Positions 3,054 to 45,633 of a stretch of 64,000 nucleotides of DNA are shown piece by piece. The number at the start of each line of letters is the position of its first letter. Positions within the stretch are counted from its first letter, which is position 1. The notes beneath the pieces are model-generated. The model did no database searches, was not told the DNA's origin, and saw nothing but the letters and a program-made list of their open reading frames with translations. The translations under genes and the position numbers were made by a program. This stretch comes from Pelagomonas calceolata (lineage: Eukaryota > Sar > Pelagophyceae > Pelagomonadales > Pelagomonadaceae), in assembly GCA_918797485.1 (NCBI GenBank), contig CAKKNE010000001.1:2232001-2296000 (forward strand). The letters run 5' to 3'.

Positions 3054-5927
3054 TCAATCTGAGGATCGAGCGCCAGCGTCTGGTCCGGCGGGCGCCTCGC
3101 CCGTCTTCGCTTCGGGAGCGCCGCGCGCCTCCCGGGCGGCCGGGCGCTTCGCGCCGGCGATCGACGAGAGCCAGCCGCCCGCCGCCGATGGCTCCCCCGC
3201 CGCCTTCCCCTCGGGCGCGCCGTCGATCTTGATCTCGACCGCGTCGACCGAGTCCTCGTCGCCGCGCGCCTCCTGCTCGCGCCAGCGCCGTTGCTTCTTT
3301 CCCCGCTTCTTGCGGAGCTTGGCGAGCATCGGCTTGAAGATGAGCCCCAGCGCCACCATGGGCAGGACCGCGGCCGCGAGCAGGACGACCGCGACGATCC
3401 ACTGCAGGTCCTTGTCGTGGAGCGAGGTCTCGGTGCGGATCATGAAGCAGACCAGAGGTAGAGGCCATCGCAGCACTCGCACTGACCGTCGCCCGGGGAG
3501 GCGCAGAAGTTTTTGTCAAATTCCGTAAACTCGATCACCGCAGAAGCTTCGTTGCCTCCTCCGTTTGAATTGTCCTTCGCCGTAATGCCCACGAGCTCGA
3601 CGTGTTCGAAACCTCTGATCGTGATCACATTCCTCATCTTCTGGTCGTTCTGGTCGCCATTCTGGTCAAAGTCCGTGTCGCGAATCGAAAGCGTCCGGGA
3701 GCCTGATTCGCCGTCCAGGTAAAAGGCGCCGCCGTGTTCGCCGCAGCTACACTCCCCTACGCGCGAGCCCGTGATCTCGACGTCTCGTACTTCGGCGGCC
3801 ACGATCGCGCCGCCGTTGCCCTCGCCGTCGGGTGCGGTGCAGCGAGTAAAAGTCGAGTCTCGGACCGTGAGCGTCGAAGCGTCCCCCGCTGCGTAGATCG
3901 CACCGCCACCGAGCCAACTCTTTTTGTCTTCCTTCTCGGCGTCATTGGGATAAACTAGCGAGCAGTCGACAAAGGTCGAACTGACGACGGTGACCTCCGC
4001 GTCGACGGCGTGGATGGCACCGCCGTTATTTGACGCTTCGCAGCCGTCGAATGTGACATCTGTCACCGTCAGCGCGCCGTTTTCGACGGCGAGGCAGCCG
4101 CCGTTTTCCTGCGCCGCCAGCGCGCGGCGAGCGGACCCCGGCGCCAGCGCGCGGCGGCGCCCTGAGCTCGACGTGAGCTTCACGTTGCGCAACGAGAGCG
4201 CCGCGCCTTGGACCGCGAAGCTGCCCGTGACATCAAAGCCCTGGCCGTCGACGACGAGGTCCGACGTGACGTCCACCGGGTCGTCGCCCAGGTCGATGTT
4301 GTCGCCCAGCGCGACTTTCGTCGTCGACGCGTCATTCACGGCGCTGCGCAGCTCCGACGCGTCGTTCACGACCGTGGCGACCAGCTGCGTCGGCATCGGC
4401 GTCGGACGCGGCGTGGGCGACGGCGCCGGCCGCGGTGTGGGCTGCGGCGCGGCTGCAAGCGGCCGGGGCGTCGGCGCGGGCACGGGCCGCGGCGTCGGCG
4501 CAGGAACGGGCCGGGGTGTGGGCTCGCCCGGTTTCGGCGTGGGCTCCGGCGTCAATTCCGCAAGAAGCGCAAACACGTAGGCTGAGCCCGATTCGGAGCC
4601 GGCGTCGTCGTCGCCGCGGGCCCCGGCCACGAGGGTGCCGCCCTCGATCGCCACGGAGGTTCCGAACCAGTCGCTGGCCGCGGCGTCCAAGGCGGTTACC
4701 TTCTCGAGCTCGTCGTACGTGGCGCCGCCGTCGTTCGTGCGGAACACGTAGACCGCGCCCGGGCCGTCGTCTTCGCCGTCTCCCGTATTGCCTTCGTTTT
4801 CGGCCGCGATGGCGATGGTGTCGCCGTCGATCGCCACCTTCTGGCCGAACTTGTCGTCCTCTGCGGCGTCGCCGGCTATGAGCTTCGCCAGCTGGGCGCC
4901 GTCGCTCGCGCTGAAGACGTAGACCGAGCCCGAGTCTTTGCGGTCCCCGGCCACGATGGTGTCCCCGTCGATCGCCACGGCGTAGCCCAGGCTGTCGCTG
5001 CCCGCGACCGTCAACTTGTCCACCTCGCCGTACGTCGCGCCGCCGTCGTCTGCGCGGAAATCGGCCGGGGCTCGGGGCGACCCCTCGGATCCTGGAACGA
5101 AAAGGTCAATTTCTACGCCGGCCGTCGCCCGTGCGGAAGACGTAGACCGCGCCCGGGCTGGCCATCGCTCCGATGGCGACGACACCGCCGGAGATGTCCA
5201 GGGAGTAGGCGAATTTGTCGTTCGACCCGGCGTCGGAGGCCGTCAGCTTGGCTACCTGGCCGTACGAGGCGCCGCCGTCGGTCGTGCGGAAGACGTAGGC
5301 CGCGTTCTGCTTGTACGCCGAGATCGCGAGGGCGTCGCCGTCCATCGCCACCGCCCAGCCGAAGCGAAGCTCGTCGCCCGCCGCGGCGTCGTCGGCCGCC
5401 AAAATGTCCACCTGGGTGTACGTGGCGTTGTCCGTCGTGCGGAAAACGTAGACGGCGCCCAGGCTATTGGCTCCCCTGTCGGGGGCCCCGATCATGACCG
5501 TGGCGCCCTTGACGGCCACGGCATAGCCGAAGTCATCGCCCGCAGCGCCGTCGGAGGCCGTCAAAAGGTCCACTTCCACGTACGTGTTTCCGCCGTCGGT
5601 CGTGCGGAGGACGTAGGCCGCGCCGCCGGTGCCAGCGCCGGGGGCGCCGATGACCACGGTGTTCCCTTCGATCGCCACGGACCGGCCGAAGTTGTGGGCC
5701 GCCGCGCCGTCGCTGGCCGTCAATTTCTCGAGCTCCGAGGAGCTCAACCGCCGCCGGCCGTCCTCCTCGAACGCGAGCGACCACGGCTGCTCGTTCGCGA
5801 CGACTCTCGCGTTGGCTATGGCTGCGGCAGGACGCTCGTGCGCCTGCACCGAGACGAGCAGCATGCCTACAAGGAGGCGCGAGGCAGCCCCTGGCGCAGC
5901 ACGCTTTTTGCCGAGGCCGCGCGCCAT
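3054..5927 (-). CDS. FG-GAP repeat / parallel beta-helix surface protein, damaged 3' end
   Basis: Exon 1 (5927-5117) starts at MARGLGKK, has a signal-type hydrophobic stretch (LLVGMLLVSVQA) and several FG-GAP repeats of the form FGxSVAIxGxTVVIGAP...VYVFRTxDGG. Exon 2 (from 5050) continues these, then a Pro/Thr spacer (PTPRPVPAPTPRP repeats) and a right-handed beta-helix-like region rich in Gly, Asn and Cys. FG-GAP blades build integrin-type beta-propellers, so an extracellular adhesive or binding role is likely. Near 3480 the frame ends; a second frame (3482-3054) carries a membrane helix (WIVAVVLLAAAVLPMVALG) and a basic tail. No GT-AG intron joins the two frames, so a frameshift or decay is likely. 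A paralogue lies at 55.9-57.4 kb. Confidence 0.65.
5051..5116 (-). mobile_element. Introner-like 66-nt intron in the FG-GAP gene
   Basis: On the minus strand it begins GTAGAAATTGACC and ends CGATTTCCGCGCAG, a diverged version of the introner ends (GTGGAAATCA and TGATTTCCACACAG). Removing it joins GDGR to HDGGATYGEV in frame between two FG-GAP blades. No clear target duplication is left. Confidence 0.55.
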
Positions 5928-6938
5928 GGCTGCGTGGGTGTCCGCCCTAAGATTTCTTCTCGGTTTGGGCTGTTGCTCCCGTCGCTCCCGGGACTCGCGG
6001 GTAAGGACTCGCTGCTCCCACTTCCCACAGTGCCTCAACTGGAAGGGGTTCACGCCCGTGCAAAATAGAACTCCCCGGGCCCACGTGGAGATATCTGCAC
6101 TTGTCTTGGCTGGGCCGGACCGCCTCTGGCGGGAAATGGCACGCCCGGCTTATCTTGTTTCGGGGGTCGGGGCGCGAGCCGGGTCTGGGGTCCTGAACAT
6201 CGATAGGCTACGCGCGCATCCTCGACGGCGTCCGCGTTCGTCCGACGGTGTTTCGGGCGCCGGGCGAGGCTCGCGGGCTCGGAGAAGTGTCGGCGGCCGG
6301 CGGCCGCGGTTTCGCGGGCCGAATCGCGGCAGCATGGGCTTGGATTGGTTTGGGAGCAAGAGAAGCGTTTTAGACGGGGACGAAGGTATCAATTTATACG
6401 GCCCTGCGTGCGGGTGCCAGAACGTATATACAGCCTATAGATTCTAGGTAGGCCAGGATGGTAGCCCACGGTGCCTCGCCGCGAAACTGAAAATCATCAA
6501 CGAAGGCAACAAACAAGCTACGAAGTTTTACATTGCAAAGCCCCATAATGAAACCAACCAAATTGGGTATTTAGATTCCAACATTGATTGTGTAACGGCT
6601 GGCAGTAAAGTCGTCGCGTTAGTGTCTATCCAAGGAGCTTGGATTTACGTCTGCTGGGTGTTCTGCATCTCGCCTGCGGTCCGCGGCGCGGTAGTCGGCG
6701 AGCAAGGATACATAATGCACAAGACTGAGGCTTTCCTCTCGCGACCGACGAGCGGTTTCTATAAGCGCGTACACTAACACGGTCGAAAGGCACTGTGGAG
6801 GTACGCAAACGCCGAGAGCGCGCGTTTTCGTGCTATACCGCTGCAATAATCTCGGAAAATCATACCAGTGAAAACCCGTCTCGAGGCTTTCGTGCTAACC
6901 CGTAGAACGAAGCGGAAACATGCCCTGTCACAAAACTT
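5928..6938. other. Intergenic region without supported gene
   Basis: Between the start of the FG-GAP gene and the 3' end of the methyltransferase gene. The stretch 6400-6900 is clearly more AT-rich than its surroundings. Open frames here lack codon-like composition or recognisable motifs. I see no RNA gene. Confidence 0.5.
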
Positions 6939-39238: not shown

Positions 39239-42200
39239 ATGGGGACCTCACTGCTCCTGCTGCCGCTCCTCATCGGGGCAGCCAGCGCGGACGTCAATGT
39301 ACGCTTCACGGAGGGCTTTGGCCACCCGGAGACCAACACCTGGGATAGCAGCTGCCGCGGCGGCGCGTACCGCGCAGCCGCGCTCACCAAAGCGGCGGGC
39401 CTGCGCATCGACGGTGGGGGCGTCGCCTACCAATGCGGCTCTGACACAGCTTGCGCGCAAGTCTTCGCCTCGATGGGCTACGACGGCTGGGCGCTCAACG
39501 CCGACGACCTCGCGTCGGGGTCGCTGGACACCTTCATCACCAACGTTGGCAGCAAGCCGGTGTTGTCGAACTACGCCTCGAGCTATACCTCGACATTCGC
39601 GAACATCGGCGGCGCCGTGCTGCTGGCGGTAGCGGATGGCGGCACGACCAAGTACCGCCAGGCCGTCGCCGTCGCGCTCACCGAGGCGCGGAACGCCGGC
39701 ATCGACTTCGACACCACGCCGGTCATTCTCCTGGTGAGCGGCATCTCGACCGTCGACATCGACGACCTCGGCGGGATCAACGCCGCGGACGCCGTGGAGA
39801 AGCTCGCCATGGAGACAGCGGACGTCGACCTCGTCATCGCGACGGGCATCTCCGGCCTGTCCACGAGCAGCTACGGGGAGGGCACCAACTGGGCGGGAGA
39901 AAGGGTCTACCTGGTCGGCTCCGACGCCTCGACGACCGTCCAGACGATGGCGCTCGGCTTCAACGACGGGACCGGCGCACCGTCGTCGATGGACAGAGAT
40001 GACGAGCCTTGCAGTGAGAGCAACTATGACGAGTTCATTTATAAAATGATCTACGGCAACGTCGACACCGTGCAGATCGGCATGCTCTGCGACACGGGCG
40101 CCGCCGGGCGCGAGGAGTGCGACGCGGGGCGGGCGGCGTTCGAGGCGATCAATAACAAGAACGACGGCATCTTCGACGACGTGCTGACATCGACGAAGCT
40201 AGAGGTGACGGTTGCGTCTTTTGACGGCAACAACTGCGGGCTCGGCGCCTCGGCGCGGGAGGCGTGGCGGACCGACCTCGCCGCGGCCAATCCGGTCGCG
40301 GTCGTCGGGCCCGGCGGTACGACGTGCGTGAAATCGGTCGCATCGAACTCTAACCGCCAGACTCTGGCAAGCTACGGTCTCCGGGATGACGCGGTCGTCA
40401 TCTCCGAGTCGTCGACGGCCACGGTCGCCAGCGACCGGTCCATCTACCCCAACCTGGCGCGCCTCGTGAGCACCGAGGACACGGTCAGCCAGGGGGTGTT
40501 GGCCGCATTTCAGAAATACGGCTGGACTCGCCTCGCCATCGTGTACGACGCCACCGACGAGTGGGCCGCGGACACCGCGAGGGTAGTGAGCGAAAACCTC
40601 GGCGCCGCGGGCATCGCCACCCTGGGCGACAAGTGCGTGTCGCGGTCGTGCGCGACATCGGAAAGCAAGTCGGATCACAGGGGTCCCAAGAAGAGCATAC
40701 GATTCGACAAAGCGGACCCCCACTGGGGCAACACCCTCATATCCACGGACGTGGCCGACTCAATTCTCGACGAACTGGTCGCACTCGACGCCAAGATCAT
40801 CTACCTCATGATCCAGCCCTCCGACACCAAGGTGCTCTTCGAGCGGATCTATCAAACAAAGAAGTGCTATGGGGCCGGGCACGCCTATTTTACCGGGTGG
40901 CCCTCGGACCAAATGTTTTTGAACGACGACGGAAAGGCGAGCACGGACGCCGCCTACGGCGCCGTGGGGCTGCTGACCGTCAAGGAGCGCCAGGACACGT
41001 CCGGTAGCGTCGCACAGGCCTTGATCGCCGCCCGCGAGGGCAGCATGGACGAGACCGTGTGCGCGCAGAACGACTATGTCAACGACGGCAGGTACTGCGA
41101 CGTCGACGGGGACGCCTCCACGCTGGGCGGCGGCTACGGCCCGTTCGTGGTCGACTCCGTGATCACGCTGGCGAAGGCGCTCGACTCGCTCAGCAGCAGC
41201 TCCGACCGCCAGAACCCGGAAAAGATCTACGAGGCGATTGGGGACGTCGGGAGGGCGGGTTTCGAGGCCTATTCGGGCACCGTGGTTCTGAACACCTACA
41301 AGGAGCGCGTGGGCTCCATGGCGATCAGAAATTACCAGCTCGAGGAGAAGGCGATCGAAAACGAGGAAAGGCGCCTCGCCGTGGATCTGACGTCGACTTC
41401 CCTGGCCGACAAGGTCGTCGCCAACATCGTGGGCGGCCAGTGGGTGCCGGAAGCCGGCATGTCGATCATCTTCCCGGGCGGCACGACGAAGGTGCCTCTG
41501 GACCGCACGCCCGAAAGCGACGACGGCAAGGGCAAGGTCGACATGGGCCTTATCTTAGGCTTAATCTTCGGCCTCTTCCTCCCGATCCTCCTCTGCATCG
41601 GCGTCGGCTTCTACCTCTACCGCCGGAAGAAGATCGAGAAATCCCGCAAACAAAAAGCGACGATCCAGCAGGCCCAGGACGAGCTCCAGGCCTTCAAGGA
41701 GAGCGTCGTGAACATGAGGGTTGTGGTCGAGGCGGCGGCGCCCGGGGGTAGCGCCGCGGAAAATGCGCCGCCGGCCGCGCCCGCCAAGTGGTACTGGGAG
41801 GAGAGCGTCGCGCGGCTGACGGCGCACGCCGTCGTCAAGCCGCCCCACTGGATCCCTTATGATGATCAAACCTCGGCCCAGCTCGAGGCGGCGAGGGCCA
41901 AAGCTTCGGTCGGCGGCTCGCCGGTCGTGCCCCTGTCGGCCGCGTACCACGCGAACGTCCTCGAGATGAAGCAGACGAACGTGCGTACCGGCTTCTCGCG
42001 GGCGCTTCTGCGGGACGCGCCGCCGCCTCCCAAATCTTCGTCGTGGTTTGGTTCCAGGGACGCACCTCCTCCGCCTCCCCCATTACCCGCGGACATCGAC
42101 GCCGACGAGCGCACTTGTTTGGTCTGCGACGTGGGTGCTATCTTACAACTGGCCAAACAACGGGACGACGGCTGGGCCTTCGGAAGCGTCGTCCTCGCGG

Positions 42201-43140
42201 CCGACGGCGCGCTGAGCACGGACCCGGGCTACGGCTGGAACCGCAACCAGGGCTGGTTCCAGATGGAGAAGACCGACGTGCCGACCGCGGACCAGTTAGC
42301 CGAGTTGCAGAAAGTACTGGGCGGAAGCGGCGGCACCGACGCTCTAGCCACGCCAAAGTACTGGGACGAAGTCAAGGACCCCACCGTCGTCGAGTACTTT
42401 AGATTAGATCCTAGGTCGCCGGCGACGCGCGACGAGTACACGAGGTGTGTGGACGCCTTCATGCTCACGCTCGATCGCTCGAAGTTCCGCATCCACTCCG
42501 TCGACCGCGTCCAGAACATCAGTCTGTGGCAGTCCTACGCCGTGAAGAAGGCCGCGACCTGTTCTCGTGAAGATGATCCTGATAAGGCGGCGCGGAAGTA
42601 TGTTCGAGCTTGGTTGTTTCACGGCTGCCCGAGTGACGTCGTTCCCAAGATCCTGCAGCAGGGTTTTAATCGTAGTTTCTGCGGCAAGAACGCGACGCTC
42701 TACGGCAAGGGCGTGTACTTCGCGCGCGACGCGTCGTACTCGACCTTTCCATTGTATTGCGCGCCCGACGCCCAGGGCGTGCAGACCATTTTCTTGGTGC
42801 GCGCCGTCGTCGGCCAGTGGTCCAAGGGCGTCAAGGACGCGCTCACGCCCGACGTCCGCGACGCGGCGCGCAACATCCTGTACGACTGCACGGTCGACAA
42901 CGTCAGGGACCCCTCCATCTTCGTCACGTACCACGACGCCCAGGCGTACCCCGAGTACATGATCAAGTTCTCGCAGACGACGCAGCACACCGGCCACCCC
43001 AAGGCCGGCCTGCCGGCGCACCGCCCCTACCGGTGTGGAAATCAAATTTACGGCGCGTTCGCTCGTTCTTCGCACCCGACTCACTGGTCGATTTCCACGC
43101 AGGCCTCTACCGGCCCAACCTGGTCGAGGGCATCGAGTAG
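39239..43140 (+). CDS. Transmembrane receptor-PARP: ligand-binding ectodomain, WWE, SH3-like and mono-ART
   Basis: Two exons (39239-43022, 43103-43140), 1273 aa. A signal peptide (MGTSLLLLPLLIGAASA) is followed by a 5'-nucleotidase-like domain to about residue 260; its GNHE-type metal motif reads LNADD, so it is probably inactive. Residues about 280-740 resemble the type-1 periplasmic/ANF receptor ligand domain. A membrane helix spans about 769-797 (LILGLIFGLFLPILLCIGVG). Inside lie a WWE domain (about 849-925, KWYWEESV), an SH3-like domain (about 952-1015, DDGWAFG and GWFQM) and a PARP catalytic domain (about 1053-1245). His1128 (LFHG) and Tyr1160 (GKGVYFA) are present; the third position is Ile1227 (DPSIFV), as in mono-ADP-ribosylating PARPs. 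WWE domains bind ADP-ribose units. Sensor-to-ART signalling is inference. Confidence 0.85.
43023..43102 (+). mobile_element. Introner with GC donor in the receptor-PARP gene
   Basis: GCCCCTAC precedes CGGTGTGGAAATCAAATTTA and the 3' end GGTCGATTTCCACGCAG is followed by GCCTCTAC, a 7/8 target duplication. Using the GC of the duplication as donor gives AHR-LYRPNLVEGIE, restoring the empty site. A GT four bases into the element (43035) would also keep frame, with C in place of the L after AHRPYR. Confidence 0.78.
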
Positions 43141-44465: not shown

Positions 44466-45633
44466 TCACGCCGCCGCCGACGCGCAGCCTCGGGCGCCGC
44501 AGGGCGCGTCTAGTGCGTTCGCGGCGTCGACGTAGAGTGCATCAAAGTTCTCCGTGTGGCGGGCAATGGCGTTCGCGAAGGCGTCGATGTCCTTCTTGCG
44601 GATGATGCCCTCGCCCCGGTTCAGCACGGCGTCGGCCAGAGCCACGATGCGCTCGTGGTCTCTTCTATGAGAATTCACCGCGGACAAATCATCATCAGGA
44701 CTCCCACCGAACCGCGCCGCGACCATGAGCTCCTCCTCGTGCGTGGCGTGCTCCCTAAATTCATCCCGCGCAACCTGCAACGCGTCCCGCGACCGCGTCT
44801 CCCGCAACTCGGCCAGAGCTTGGCCGATCGCCGCGTGCTCGGCGTCCATACCAGCATGGCCGATCTTCTTCAGGTCACCATCAGGAGACGCCGACCGCGT
44901 CGGCGCGTCCACGACCAAATTCTCCCGCTTGAGCGCGATGGCCTGGCCGTCGACGACGACCGCGACGCGGCCCGCCTGGCGGACCTCCGGAGGCGTCTCG
45001 GTCACGATGCCTCTTCTACCATTAAAGGCGTCGTTCGACAGTCCTGTGAGTTCGACGGCACTACCGACCGGCAGCGCGTCGCCTCCCAATAGCACGGCTA
45101 ATTTGGCGTCGACGTCCCGAAATGCCACTTCCCCGTAATCCAACAGACTTTTGGTTTTGGTGGTCACGATGTTCCCGTCCCCGTCGACGACCACAAAGCC
45201 ACTACAACCCAACTGCAACGGTATCTGCGGGATGTCCGGCCCCTCGACGACGCAATTCGTCGCCGTATGTAAGTAGAGTCGCGCGAACTCCCTCGCGACA
45301 TACTCGCCTTCGACACACACACATGCGAAGACACAAGCCGCCCCGTGCGCGCGCTGCCAGAGCTCCATCTGCTGCGCGCAGGGGCGGCAGCCGCCTCAGC
45401 CACCATTATAAAAATGGAGGACCTGTGTGTGTTTCCGCGTCCGATGTCGGAGAACGCTCGGGGCGGAAGCGCGCCGGACGAAGCGCGCCGCGTCTTTTGG
45501 GCCGGACACGGCGCGAACGTACCAGGGGCCGGCCCGCCGCGAGGCCCTTGAGCGAGGTCTTCGCACCGAGGGCACCGCCGGCCAGCGGCTTGACCATGAA
45601 ATCAGGGAGCGGCTTGCCCACGAAGGACGCCAT
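44466..45633 (-). CDS. Selenoprotein: thioredoxin-like domain with UxxCxxC, KOW/SH3-like domain, hemerythrin domain
   Basis: Two exons (45633-45523, 45422-44466), 355 aa if the in-frame TGA at 45396-45398 is read as Sec46. The frame reads RPLVLHFYNGG-U-GGCRPCAQQMELW: a redoxin strand, Sec, and a CxxC in the usual thioredoxin active-site place. FVVVDGDGNIVTTK closes the fold. A beta-barrel like KOW/SH3 follows (NGRRGIV). The C-terminal HHE domain has hemerythrin-type ligands (DAEHAAIGQAL, HATHEEELM, HRRDHERIV, ARHTENFDALY), which bind a di-iron centre. A SECIS lies just downstream. The only alternative, removing a 32-nt GT-AG segment, is too short for an intron. A redox/oxygen-linked role is inference. 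Confidence 0.78.
45423..45522 (-). other. 100-nt intron of the selenoprotein gene
   Basis: Donor CTG-GTACGT, acceptor CACACACAG-GTC, phase 0. The 3' end (GCGGAAACACACACAG) resembles an eroded introner end, but no target duplication is visible beyond GT. Confidence 0.65.

Follow-up and report, generated by a model that had tools for sequence, protein, structure and literature searches.

Background

What is known of ADP-ribosylation concerns mainly responses inside the cell to damage, infection or endoplasmic reticulum (ER) stress. PARP10, PARP12, PARP14 and PARP15 are soluble proteins lacking a signal peptide, an ectodomain and a membrane helix, and in PARP12 and PARP14 a WWE domain precedes the PARP domain. 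Receptor guanylyl cyclases (the natriuretic peptide receptors) and class C G protein-coupled receptors (GPCRs) share an ANF/type-1 ectodomain, the cyclases being single-pass and enzyme-linked, and we know of no described receptor class with an ADP-ribosyltransferase (ART) as its effector. Here we analyse a gene from the pelagophyte alga Pelagomonas calceolata that joins a type-1 ligand-binding domain, a single membrane helix and a PARP domain in one reading frame. It lies in a 64,000-nucleotide stretch, hereafter the window (assembly GCA_918797485.1, contig CAKKNE010000001.1, positions 2,232,001 to 2,296,000), within a 32.4-Mb assembly of 8 contigs.

Membrane-bound members of the PARP family have been recorded before. 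The relevant sections of a 2025 review call PARP16 the sole transmembrane mono-ART of the family and describe the role of ADP-ribosylation in ER stress (PMC12377720). In the passages that concern them, a 2014 survey lists a clade-3 PARP from a sponge, its membrane helix at the N-terminus, clade-3 proteins of Rhizaria with H_lectin and transmembrane domains, and PARPs in Thalassiosira oceanica, and gives the sponge and rhizarian proteins no receptor reading there (PMC4245714).

Architecture of the gene product

The gene probably encodes a type I single-pass receptor enzyme with ligand-gated mono-ADP-ribosylation. This interpretation is supported by independent profile matches for both halves of the protein, by a helix between them with positive charges on the PARP side, and by the recurrence of this order in pelagophytes and diatoms (Table 1). 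The ANF_receptor match of the window protein reaches 53.4 bits (curated cut-off 25.4) and the Pfam PARP match, over residues 1065-1193, reaches 72.7 bits (curated cut-off 26.7), so that both halves are recognised independently within one conserved polypeptide. An earlier note on this DNA, made from the letters alone, had proposed a signal peptide, a type-1 ligand-binding ectodomain, a single membrane helix, a WWE domain and a PARP domain with the His/Tyr/Ile triad of mono-ARTs in one open frame, and all of these are borne out here. An NCBIfam scan of the window protein gave one match alone, below its cut-off.

Given base composition alone, a stop-free frame of this length would arise by chance with a probability of about 5e-15. 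GC content at third codon positions (GC3) lies between 0.73 and 1.00 across 22 bins of the frame, and the ectodomain, membrane helix and cytosolic half are all coding-like; the three phases of the upstream spacer give 0.66, 0.61 and 0.70 for comparison. That the receptor-PARP frame is an artefact is unlikely, because coding GC3 spans the membrane segment, five relatives keep the order, and 108 of 122 aligned proteins have a single helix before the PARP domain. The PARP domain ends ahead of the putative last intron; the last exon rests on the GT..AG boundaries and on a tail like those of P0005 and P0008 (P numbers denote the relatives retrieved), and the predicted spliced product has 1277 amino acids.

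Two genes, or a misassembly, read as one could be suspected from the paralogues L014, L016 and L020 of the same genome, whose coding sequences, presumably because of introns, are each spread over two or three frames. The window gene, however, has no stop across its membrane segment and coding GC3 throughout, residues 766-845 are 89% identical to P0003, and relatives from other contigs have the same order. The two-gene reading is thus very improbable, and we rejected it.

Table 1. Features of the receptor-PARP gene and positions of its paralogues. Coordinates are those of the window except in the last three rows.
Feature	Position	Strand	Basis
First coding exon, receptor-PARP	39239..43034	+	1265 whole codons, ATG at 39239
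Signal peptide MGTSLLLLPLLIGAASA (residues 1-17)	39239..39289	+	KD19 1.61 at residue 1; P0002 and P0005 start alike; cleavage site by eye
Probable degenerate 5'-nucleotidase N-domain (residues ~18-264), metal-ligand motifs lost	39290..40030	+	HHalign via P0058/P0018; motif alignment
ANF_receptor / type-1 periplasmic-binding-like ligand domain (residues 314-700)	40178..41338	+	Pfam PF01094, E 2.8e-14
Single transmembrane helix (residues 771-794), then RRKK	41549..41620	+	KD19 2.85 at residue 771
Juxtamembrane helix with ELxxFxxSVVxMR motif (residues 795-830)	41621..41728	+	Alignment of 44 rows
WWE domain (residues 851-922)	41789..42004	+	Pfam PF02825, E 3.1e-5, above curated cut-off
Divergent SH3-like domain (residues ~955-1022), DGWxFG and GWF motifs	42101..42304	+	PDB profile search; Pfam SH3 matches in other members
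PARP catalytic domain (residues 1055-1250), closest to PARP15/14/10/12	42401..42988	+	Pfam, E 3.7e-20; PDB 4f0e, E 6.9e-38
Catalytic His1128	42620..42622	+	PARP alignment
Catalytic Tyr1160	42716..42718	+	PARP alignment
Ile1227, in place of the poly-ART Glu	42917..42919	+	PARP alignment
Putative last intron, GT..AG, 68 bp	43035..43102	+	Inferred from sequence
Putative last exon, ...LYRPNLVEGIE stop	43103..43140	+	Spliced reading; tail resembles P0005 and P0008
L016, receptor-PARP gene, window-type ectodomain	G000:C2:4146000-4154000
L014, receptor-PARP gene, NMT1/CUB-type ectodomain	G000:C1:4873500-4881500
L020, receptor-PARP gene, NMT1/CUB-type ectodomain	G000:C4:1314500-1322500

Membrane helix and juxtamembrane segment

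Membrane helices were called by plain hydropathy, and the peak at residue 771 is the sole one of membrane-helix strength in the window protein apart from that at the N-terminus. The comparison of helices covered 123 rows (the window protein and 122 relatives, with P0010 and the animal proteins P0028-P0031 omitted), of which P0004 has no PARP segment, leaving 122. Exactly one helix upstream of the PARP domain and none downstream was found in 108 of these, the window protein included. Lysine and arginine were in excess on the PARP side in 104 of the 108 one-helix rows, equal on both sides in three, and opposite in one (P0017).

The juxtamembrane motif is common to pelagophytes and diatoms, and its loose form was recovered in 34 of 44 aligned rows. 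A conserved helix in this position is what a signal-passing linker would need. It also bears on a Notch-like alternative, in which the protein would be cleaved at the membrane and the released WWE-SH3-PARP half would act elsewhere in the cell. The cytosolic half is indeed a complete module, with a PARP domain like those of soluble mono-ARTs; a conserved helical stretch directly after the membrane helix nevertheless suits transmission better than release, and we regard cleavage as improbable.

Cytosolic module

The first tryptophan, the glutamate and the histidine columns of the WWE domain are invariant across the 44 aligned rows, and the key residues of the DGWxFG and GWF motifs and of the PARP core are invariant or nearly so. 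The SH3-like label comes from the family rather than from the window sequence. When a profile of 13 members was searched against the PDB, SH3 molecules ranked first (best E 0.0014), and among the Pfam SH3 models run on the same 13 members at E values up to 1, SH3_9 matched seven and SH3_2 six. The SH3-like domain of the earlier note is accordingly a tentative, profile-level assignment, with no Pfam match on the window sequence itself.

By profile and by triad, the PARP domain is of the clade 3 mono-ART type. The triad was aligned for 126 of 128 proteins, four animal PARPs included (P0004 and P0010 lack the segment). The combination HYI occurred in 98 rows, HYL in 13, HYM in seven, HYV in three, HYF in one, and H-Y followed by a gap in one. 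Three of the 126 rows lack the H or the Y, two through gaps and one through a D, and glutamate occupied the third place in none of the 126. PARP13 (ZC3HAV1), which is also a lower PDB match of the window PARP domain, is inactive. Since inactive PARP-fold proteins exist, among them PARP13 and RCD1 (so named among the PDB matches), the domain could be imagined as a non-catalytic scaffold or reader, with signalling by recruitment through the WWE and SH3-like domains. The retention of H-Y in 123 of 126 rows, with a hydrophobic residue wherever the third place is filled, as in active mono-ARTs, and the invariance of the GKGVYFA stretch in the 44 rows speak against this, and the scaffold seems to us, if anything, a shade less probable than cleavage.

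The genome also contains matches to macrodomains (12), to ARH (two, one with an internal TGA) and to PARG (one), and a reversible ADP-ribosylation cycle is therefore plausible. At G000:C2:654322-655980, a macrodomain match and a PARP match lie near each other on the same strand and have equal open-frame length (729), suggesting a PARP9/14-like reader-writer gene.

Ectodomain

The earlier note's 5'-nucleotidase-like ectodomain was upheld in part: profile comparison makes 5'-nucleotidase the likely ancestry of the N-terminal part, and the enzyme identity falls away. A profile built from the window protein together with six relatives matched the N-domain of P0058/P0018 at 96.5% by HHalign (score 77.3), while 50 column shuffles of this link peaked at 1.9% and a score of 24.9. 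P0058/P0018 matched five bacterial 5'-nucleotidases at 99.9% by HHalign, a step made without a shuffle control. Compared directly with the same number of bacterial enzymes, the window N-domain gave a weak match (7%, score 30.4; maximum of 50 shuffles 24.2), and the comparison with P0112 alone was weaker than this (1.8%). P0112 itself aligns over some 500 residues with the structures of CD73 and further 5'-nucleotidases, and in P0018 and P0058 a 5'-nucleotidase C-domain is located ahead of the ANF domain.

The metal motifs DLH, GDN, GNHE and GHSH (as DxH, GD, GNHE, GHSH) are replaced or unrecognisable in the window protein and four near relatives, and they are altered in P0018, P0058 and P0112 as well. 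The C-terminal nucleotide-binding domain, PF02872, found no match in the window protein at E values up to 1. For the ANF domain, the ectodomain of the diatom protein P0021 had calcium-sensing and metabotropic glutamate receptors as its nearest matches (best E ~1e-10).

P0112 may be a multi-pass version of the family: its CD73-like ectodomain is followed by a cysteine-rich stretch, several hydrophobic helices, and then WWE, weak SH3 and PARP domains. Elsewhere in the P. calceolata genome, L028 (G000:C4:1356500-1366000) holds at 4366-6054 on the - strand a 563-codon frame with a related ANF ectodomain and, by eye, its own signal peptide. No PARP match was among the genome matches at that place, and the frame may encode a soluble form, or it may extend past an intron.

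A family with interchangeable sensors

Protein searches returned 30 relatives with the first query and 231 with the cytosolic half, of which the best 120 were analysed; both searches scored the 8000 candidates sharing most words. P0002, P0003, P0005, P0006 and P0007 keep the whole domain order, aligning over 95-99% of the window protein's first exon at 49-82% identity, and a sixth close relative, P0004, is without the PARP part. Over residues 845-1245 the window protein is 98% identical to P0002 and 91% to P0003, and over residues 280-840 the corresponding values are 77% and 56%, which indicates that the effector has been held fixed with the sensor changing faster. Aureococcus, Seminavis, Nitzschia and Cylindrotheca are among the named sources, as is an entry beginning Stauro; an entry beginning Tiarin and the EukProt entry P0110 may mean that the family reaches beyond ochrophytes, or may be contamination. 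In five relatives with transcript-type names (mmetsp/CAMPEP; P0020, P0075, P0084, P0116 and P0127), the PARP half and the membrane helix lie on a single open reading frame, with ANF called in three, Cache in one and no ectodomain in one.

The same module thus stands behind many ectodomains. Among the 123 rows, precomputed Pfam calls labelled ANF in 55, 5'-nucleotidase with ANF in six, 5'-nucleotidase in one, CUB in 10, NMT1 (with or without CUB) in six, Cache in nine, PF12849 (which we take to be PstS-like) in three, Bmp in two, leucine-rich repeats (LRR) in two and C-lectin in one, with none called in 28; for 12 relatives and a further six, the coordinates of the domains were checked with hmmscan. 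Domain scans joined ANF, 5'-nucleotidase, NMT1, CUB, Bmp, Cache and LRR to the module, PF12849 being joined by its precomputed label, and the PARP segment of the C-lectin protein, P0019, is partial. The label CUB alone probably denotes the same ectodomain type as NMT1 with CUB. The earlier note had pictured a single odd receptor-PARP; its architecture is confirmed, and what appeared to be a one-off is a family. The check that the note proposed, a search for the same domain order in other pelagophytes, found it there and in diatoms. The cytosolic module is conserved behind varied ectodomains in both groups, and perhaps beyond them.

When residues 280-840 served as the query for other effectors behind the same ectodomain, 10 proteins were returned, and P0130 alone suggests, by eye, a different effector. 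It carries 5'-nucleotidase and ANF labels, several hydrophobic stretches and a C-terminal FHLFLSHTW that by eye recalls TIR-like domains, perhaps the same sensor with another effector. P0129 and P0131, matched by the same query, showed no clear effector. Five Aureococcus proteins (P0013, P0014, P0015, P0036 and P0047) are named 'platelet-activating factor acetyltransferase' at their source, in some cases in truncated form, a name that their listed Pfam domains do not support.

A viral origin was considered and is unsupported: none of 71 pattern matches in viral contigs gave a tblastn relative, and no relative was found in phages. Among prokaryote genomes, one of 41 pattern matches encoded a relative, L030 (PAUB01000026.1, an Opitutaceae metagenome-assembled genome), in a frame of 654 codons; its PARP domain shares 40% identity with the algal module, and no ectodomain was recognised by eye. 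It may be a eukaryotic contig mis-binned into a bacterial genome.

Exchange of modules

A quick tree of 120 catalytic domains (LG+G4, SH-aLRT support only; the fragments P0019, P0036, P0055, P0091, P0107 and P0108 dropped) mixes the ectodomain types. The ANF label changes 19 times on it, at least six of the changes being forced by well-supported branches, and all ectodomain labels together change 43 times, or 28 times without the unlabelled rows; these changes are overcounted, as 28 of the 123 rows are unlabelled and many are metagenomic gene calls. With SH-aLRT support of 100 in both cases, the NMT1/CUB receptor P0033 clusters with the ANF receptor P0005 and the unlabelled P0032, and the ANF receptors P0006/P0007 cluster with the NMT1/CUB receptors P0016/P0017.

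The paralogues within the P. calceolata genome give a parallel picture. PF00644 has 12 matches there, two of them within one gene, making 11 places, four of which have the ectodomain types tested; the remaining seven were compared with three ectodomains (window protein, P0012 and P0019), and other receptor types lie outside that comparison. L014, L016 and L020 were compared in pieces, without gene models. By ectodomain, the window protein pairs with L016 (52% identity over 286 amino acids, 45% over 487) and L014 with L020 (55% over ~1025), and the one cross-pair match at E values up to 1e-5, between L016 and L020 (149 amino acids, 32%), includes the membrane region. By cytosolic half, the window protein pairs with L014 and L016 with L020. 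Over 182 common columns of WWE-SH3 these two pairs share 63% and 52% identity, with 38-42% in the other four pairs. In the N-terminal part of the PARP domain (61 columns) they share 69% and 62%, with 49-62% elsewhere (window-L016 tying at 62%), and in its C-terminal part (106 columns) 80% and 86%, with 69-80% elsewhere (window-L016 tying at 80%). Such discordant pairing would be expected if halves had been exchanged, or if the cytosolic half had undergone gene conversion.

Near the gene, at 44466-45368 of the window on the - strand, a further frame contains a His/Glu-rich stretch that is hemerythrin-like by eye.

Proposed mechanism

If the gene product works as a receptor enzyme, its signal peptide would direct the N-terminal half to the outside of the cell, and the protein would sit in the plasma membrane with its WWE, SH3-like and PARP domains in the cytosol. 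The degenerate 5'-nucleotidase N-domain and the type-1 (flytrap) domain would sense a small extracellular ligand, which would close or re-pair the flytraps, most likely within a dimer. The membrane helix and, after it, the juxtamembrane helix would then relay the change to the module of WWE, SH3-like and PARP domains. Once gated in this way, the PARP module would be enzymatically active and transfer single ADP-ribose units from NAD+ onto itself or onto nearby cytosolic proteins as substrates; recognition and removal of this mark could fall to the macrodomain, ARH and PARG homologues.

Several observations weigh against this interpretation or weaken parts of it. Residues 1-300 of the window protein matched no 5'-nucleotidase in Pfam and nothing in the PDB, making that label weak on the window protein itself, and the SH3-like label is similarly weakened by the lack of a Pfam match on the window sequence. 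Matches of the window ANF domain to solved receptors are too weak to point to a ligand (GABA-B R1 alone, E 0.032). Seven of the 122 rows have no helix and seven have two to six, the juxtamembrane motif was not found in 10 of the 44 rows (P0006, P0007, P0015, P0016, P0017, P0022, P0051, P0068, P0085 and P0126), and many relatives are metagenomic gene calls, some of them incomplete. Finally, the 750-residue ectodomain (39290-41548) contains no N-x-S/T sequon, against a shuffle mean of 4.9, which is odd for a surface protein. Sequons are likewise absent from P0002, P0003, P0004, P0006 and P0012, with one each in P0005, P0008 and P0021, two in P0007, five in P0018 and six in P0025.

The lack of sequons also favours the strongest rival, in which the same enzyme would reside in an endomembrane, that of the ER, a vacuole, a phagosome or an endosome, and monitor what the lumen contains, much as PARP16 does for ER stress. 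By itself, a signal peptide does not determine which membrane a protein ends up in, and PARP16, in the review sections on it, is a mono-ART that crosses the ER membrane once and depends on its luminal tail for activity during ER stress (PMC12377720). Against a luminal role, PARP16 has no such ectodomain, and the ectodomains of the family are nutrient- or ligand-binding folds (ANF, NMT1, Bmp, Cache, CUB) that would be better suited to the cell surface. We therefore consider the endomembrane version unlikely, if clearly less so than the other alternatives, and retain the surface receptor enzyme as our interpretation.

Significance

Among the open-access papers that our literature searches listed, none describes a receptor-type PARP in its title or the opening of its abstract; most subscription papers and bioRxiv fall outside that coverage, and an earlier mention is possible. 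The terms 'PARP' and 'ADP-ribos' are likewise absent from the main text of the P. calceolata assembly paper (PMC9481584) and from a 2026 article on this species (PMC13284251). Because we know of no described class that uses an ADP-ribosyltransferase effector and these searches showed none, we call the receptor class categorically new. On a stricter reading, it could be a variation on enzyme-linked receptors.

Our broader proposal, which we favour by a smaller measure than the receptor reading of the window gene, is that receptor ADP-ribosyltransferases should be ranked with receptor kinases, phosphatases and cyclases as another large class among the single-pass receptor enzymes. A fixed cytosolic WWE-SH3-PARP module would have been recombined with many types of extracellular sensor in ochrophyte algae, perhaps also in other protists, and mono-ADP-ribosylation of cytosolic proteins would be the direct output for nutrients, nucleotides or cell-cell signals. 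If so, ocean algae wire ADP-ribosylation straight to the outside through receptors with interchangeable sensors, and members of the family become candidates for the receptors with which diatoms and pelagophytes perceive nutrient, nucleotide or cell-cell cues. In its listing of the lineages concerned, a 2010 survey gave two diatoms and Aureococcus as lacking PARPs (PMC2964712), which is now revised, at least for Aureococcus and for other diatoms.

Comparison with known systems

The domain order of PARP16 is the reverse of that described here, with the catalytic domain first and the helix near the C-terminus, and it is without WWE or SH3 domains. The window protein has no such C-terminal tail anchor; its helix precedes the WWE and PARP domains and none follows. 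In the sections of the review that describe it, PARP16 resembles the window protein in being a single-pass membrane PARP of the mono-ART type with a cytosolic catalytic domain and a luminal tail that matters for activity (PMC12377720), and it differs in that this tail has 23 residues, as opposed to a ligand-binding ectodomain of 750. The closest catalytic domains are those of PARP10, PARP12, PARP14 and PARP15, the clade 3 mono-ARTs, which share the H-Y-hydrophobic triad.

The ecto-ARTs (ARTC1-5) are likewise membrane-bound ADP-ribosyltransferases, although they constitute another ART family. According to the review's account of them, they are either secreted or attached through a GPI anchor, with the enzyme facing the outside or the lumen (PMC12377720). 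CD73-type ecto-5'-nucleotidases probably share the fold of the N-domain, judged by profile via P0058/P0018, and differ in the metal motifs and the C-domain, both of which the window protein lacks. Receptor guanylyl cyclases and class C GPCRs differ at the other end of the molecule, where their effector is a cyclase or a heptahelical bundle and not an ADP-ribosyltransferase.

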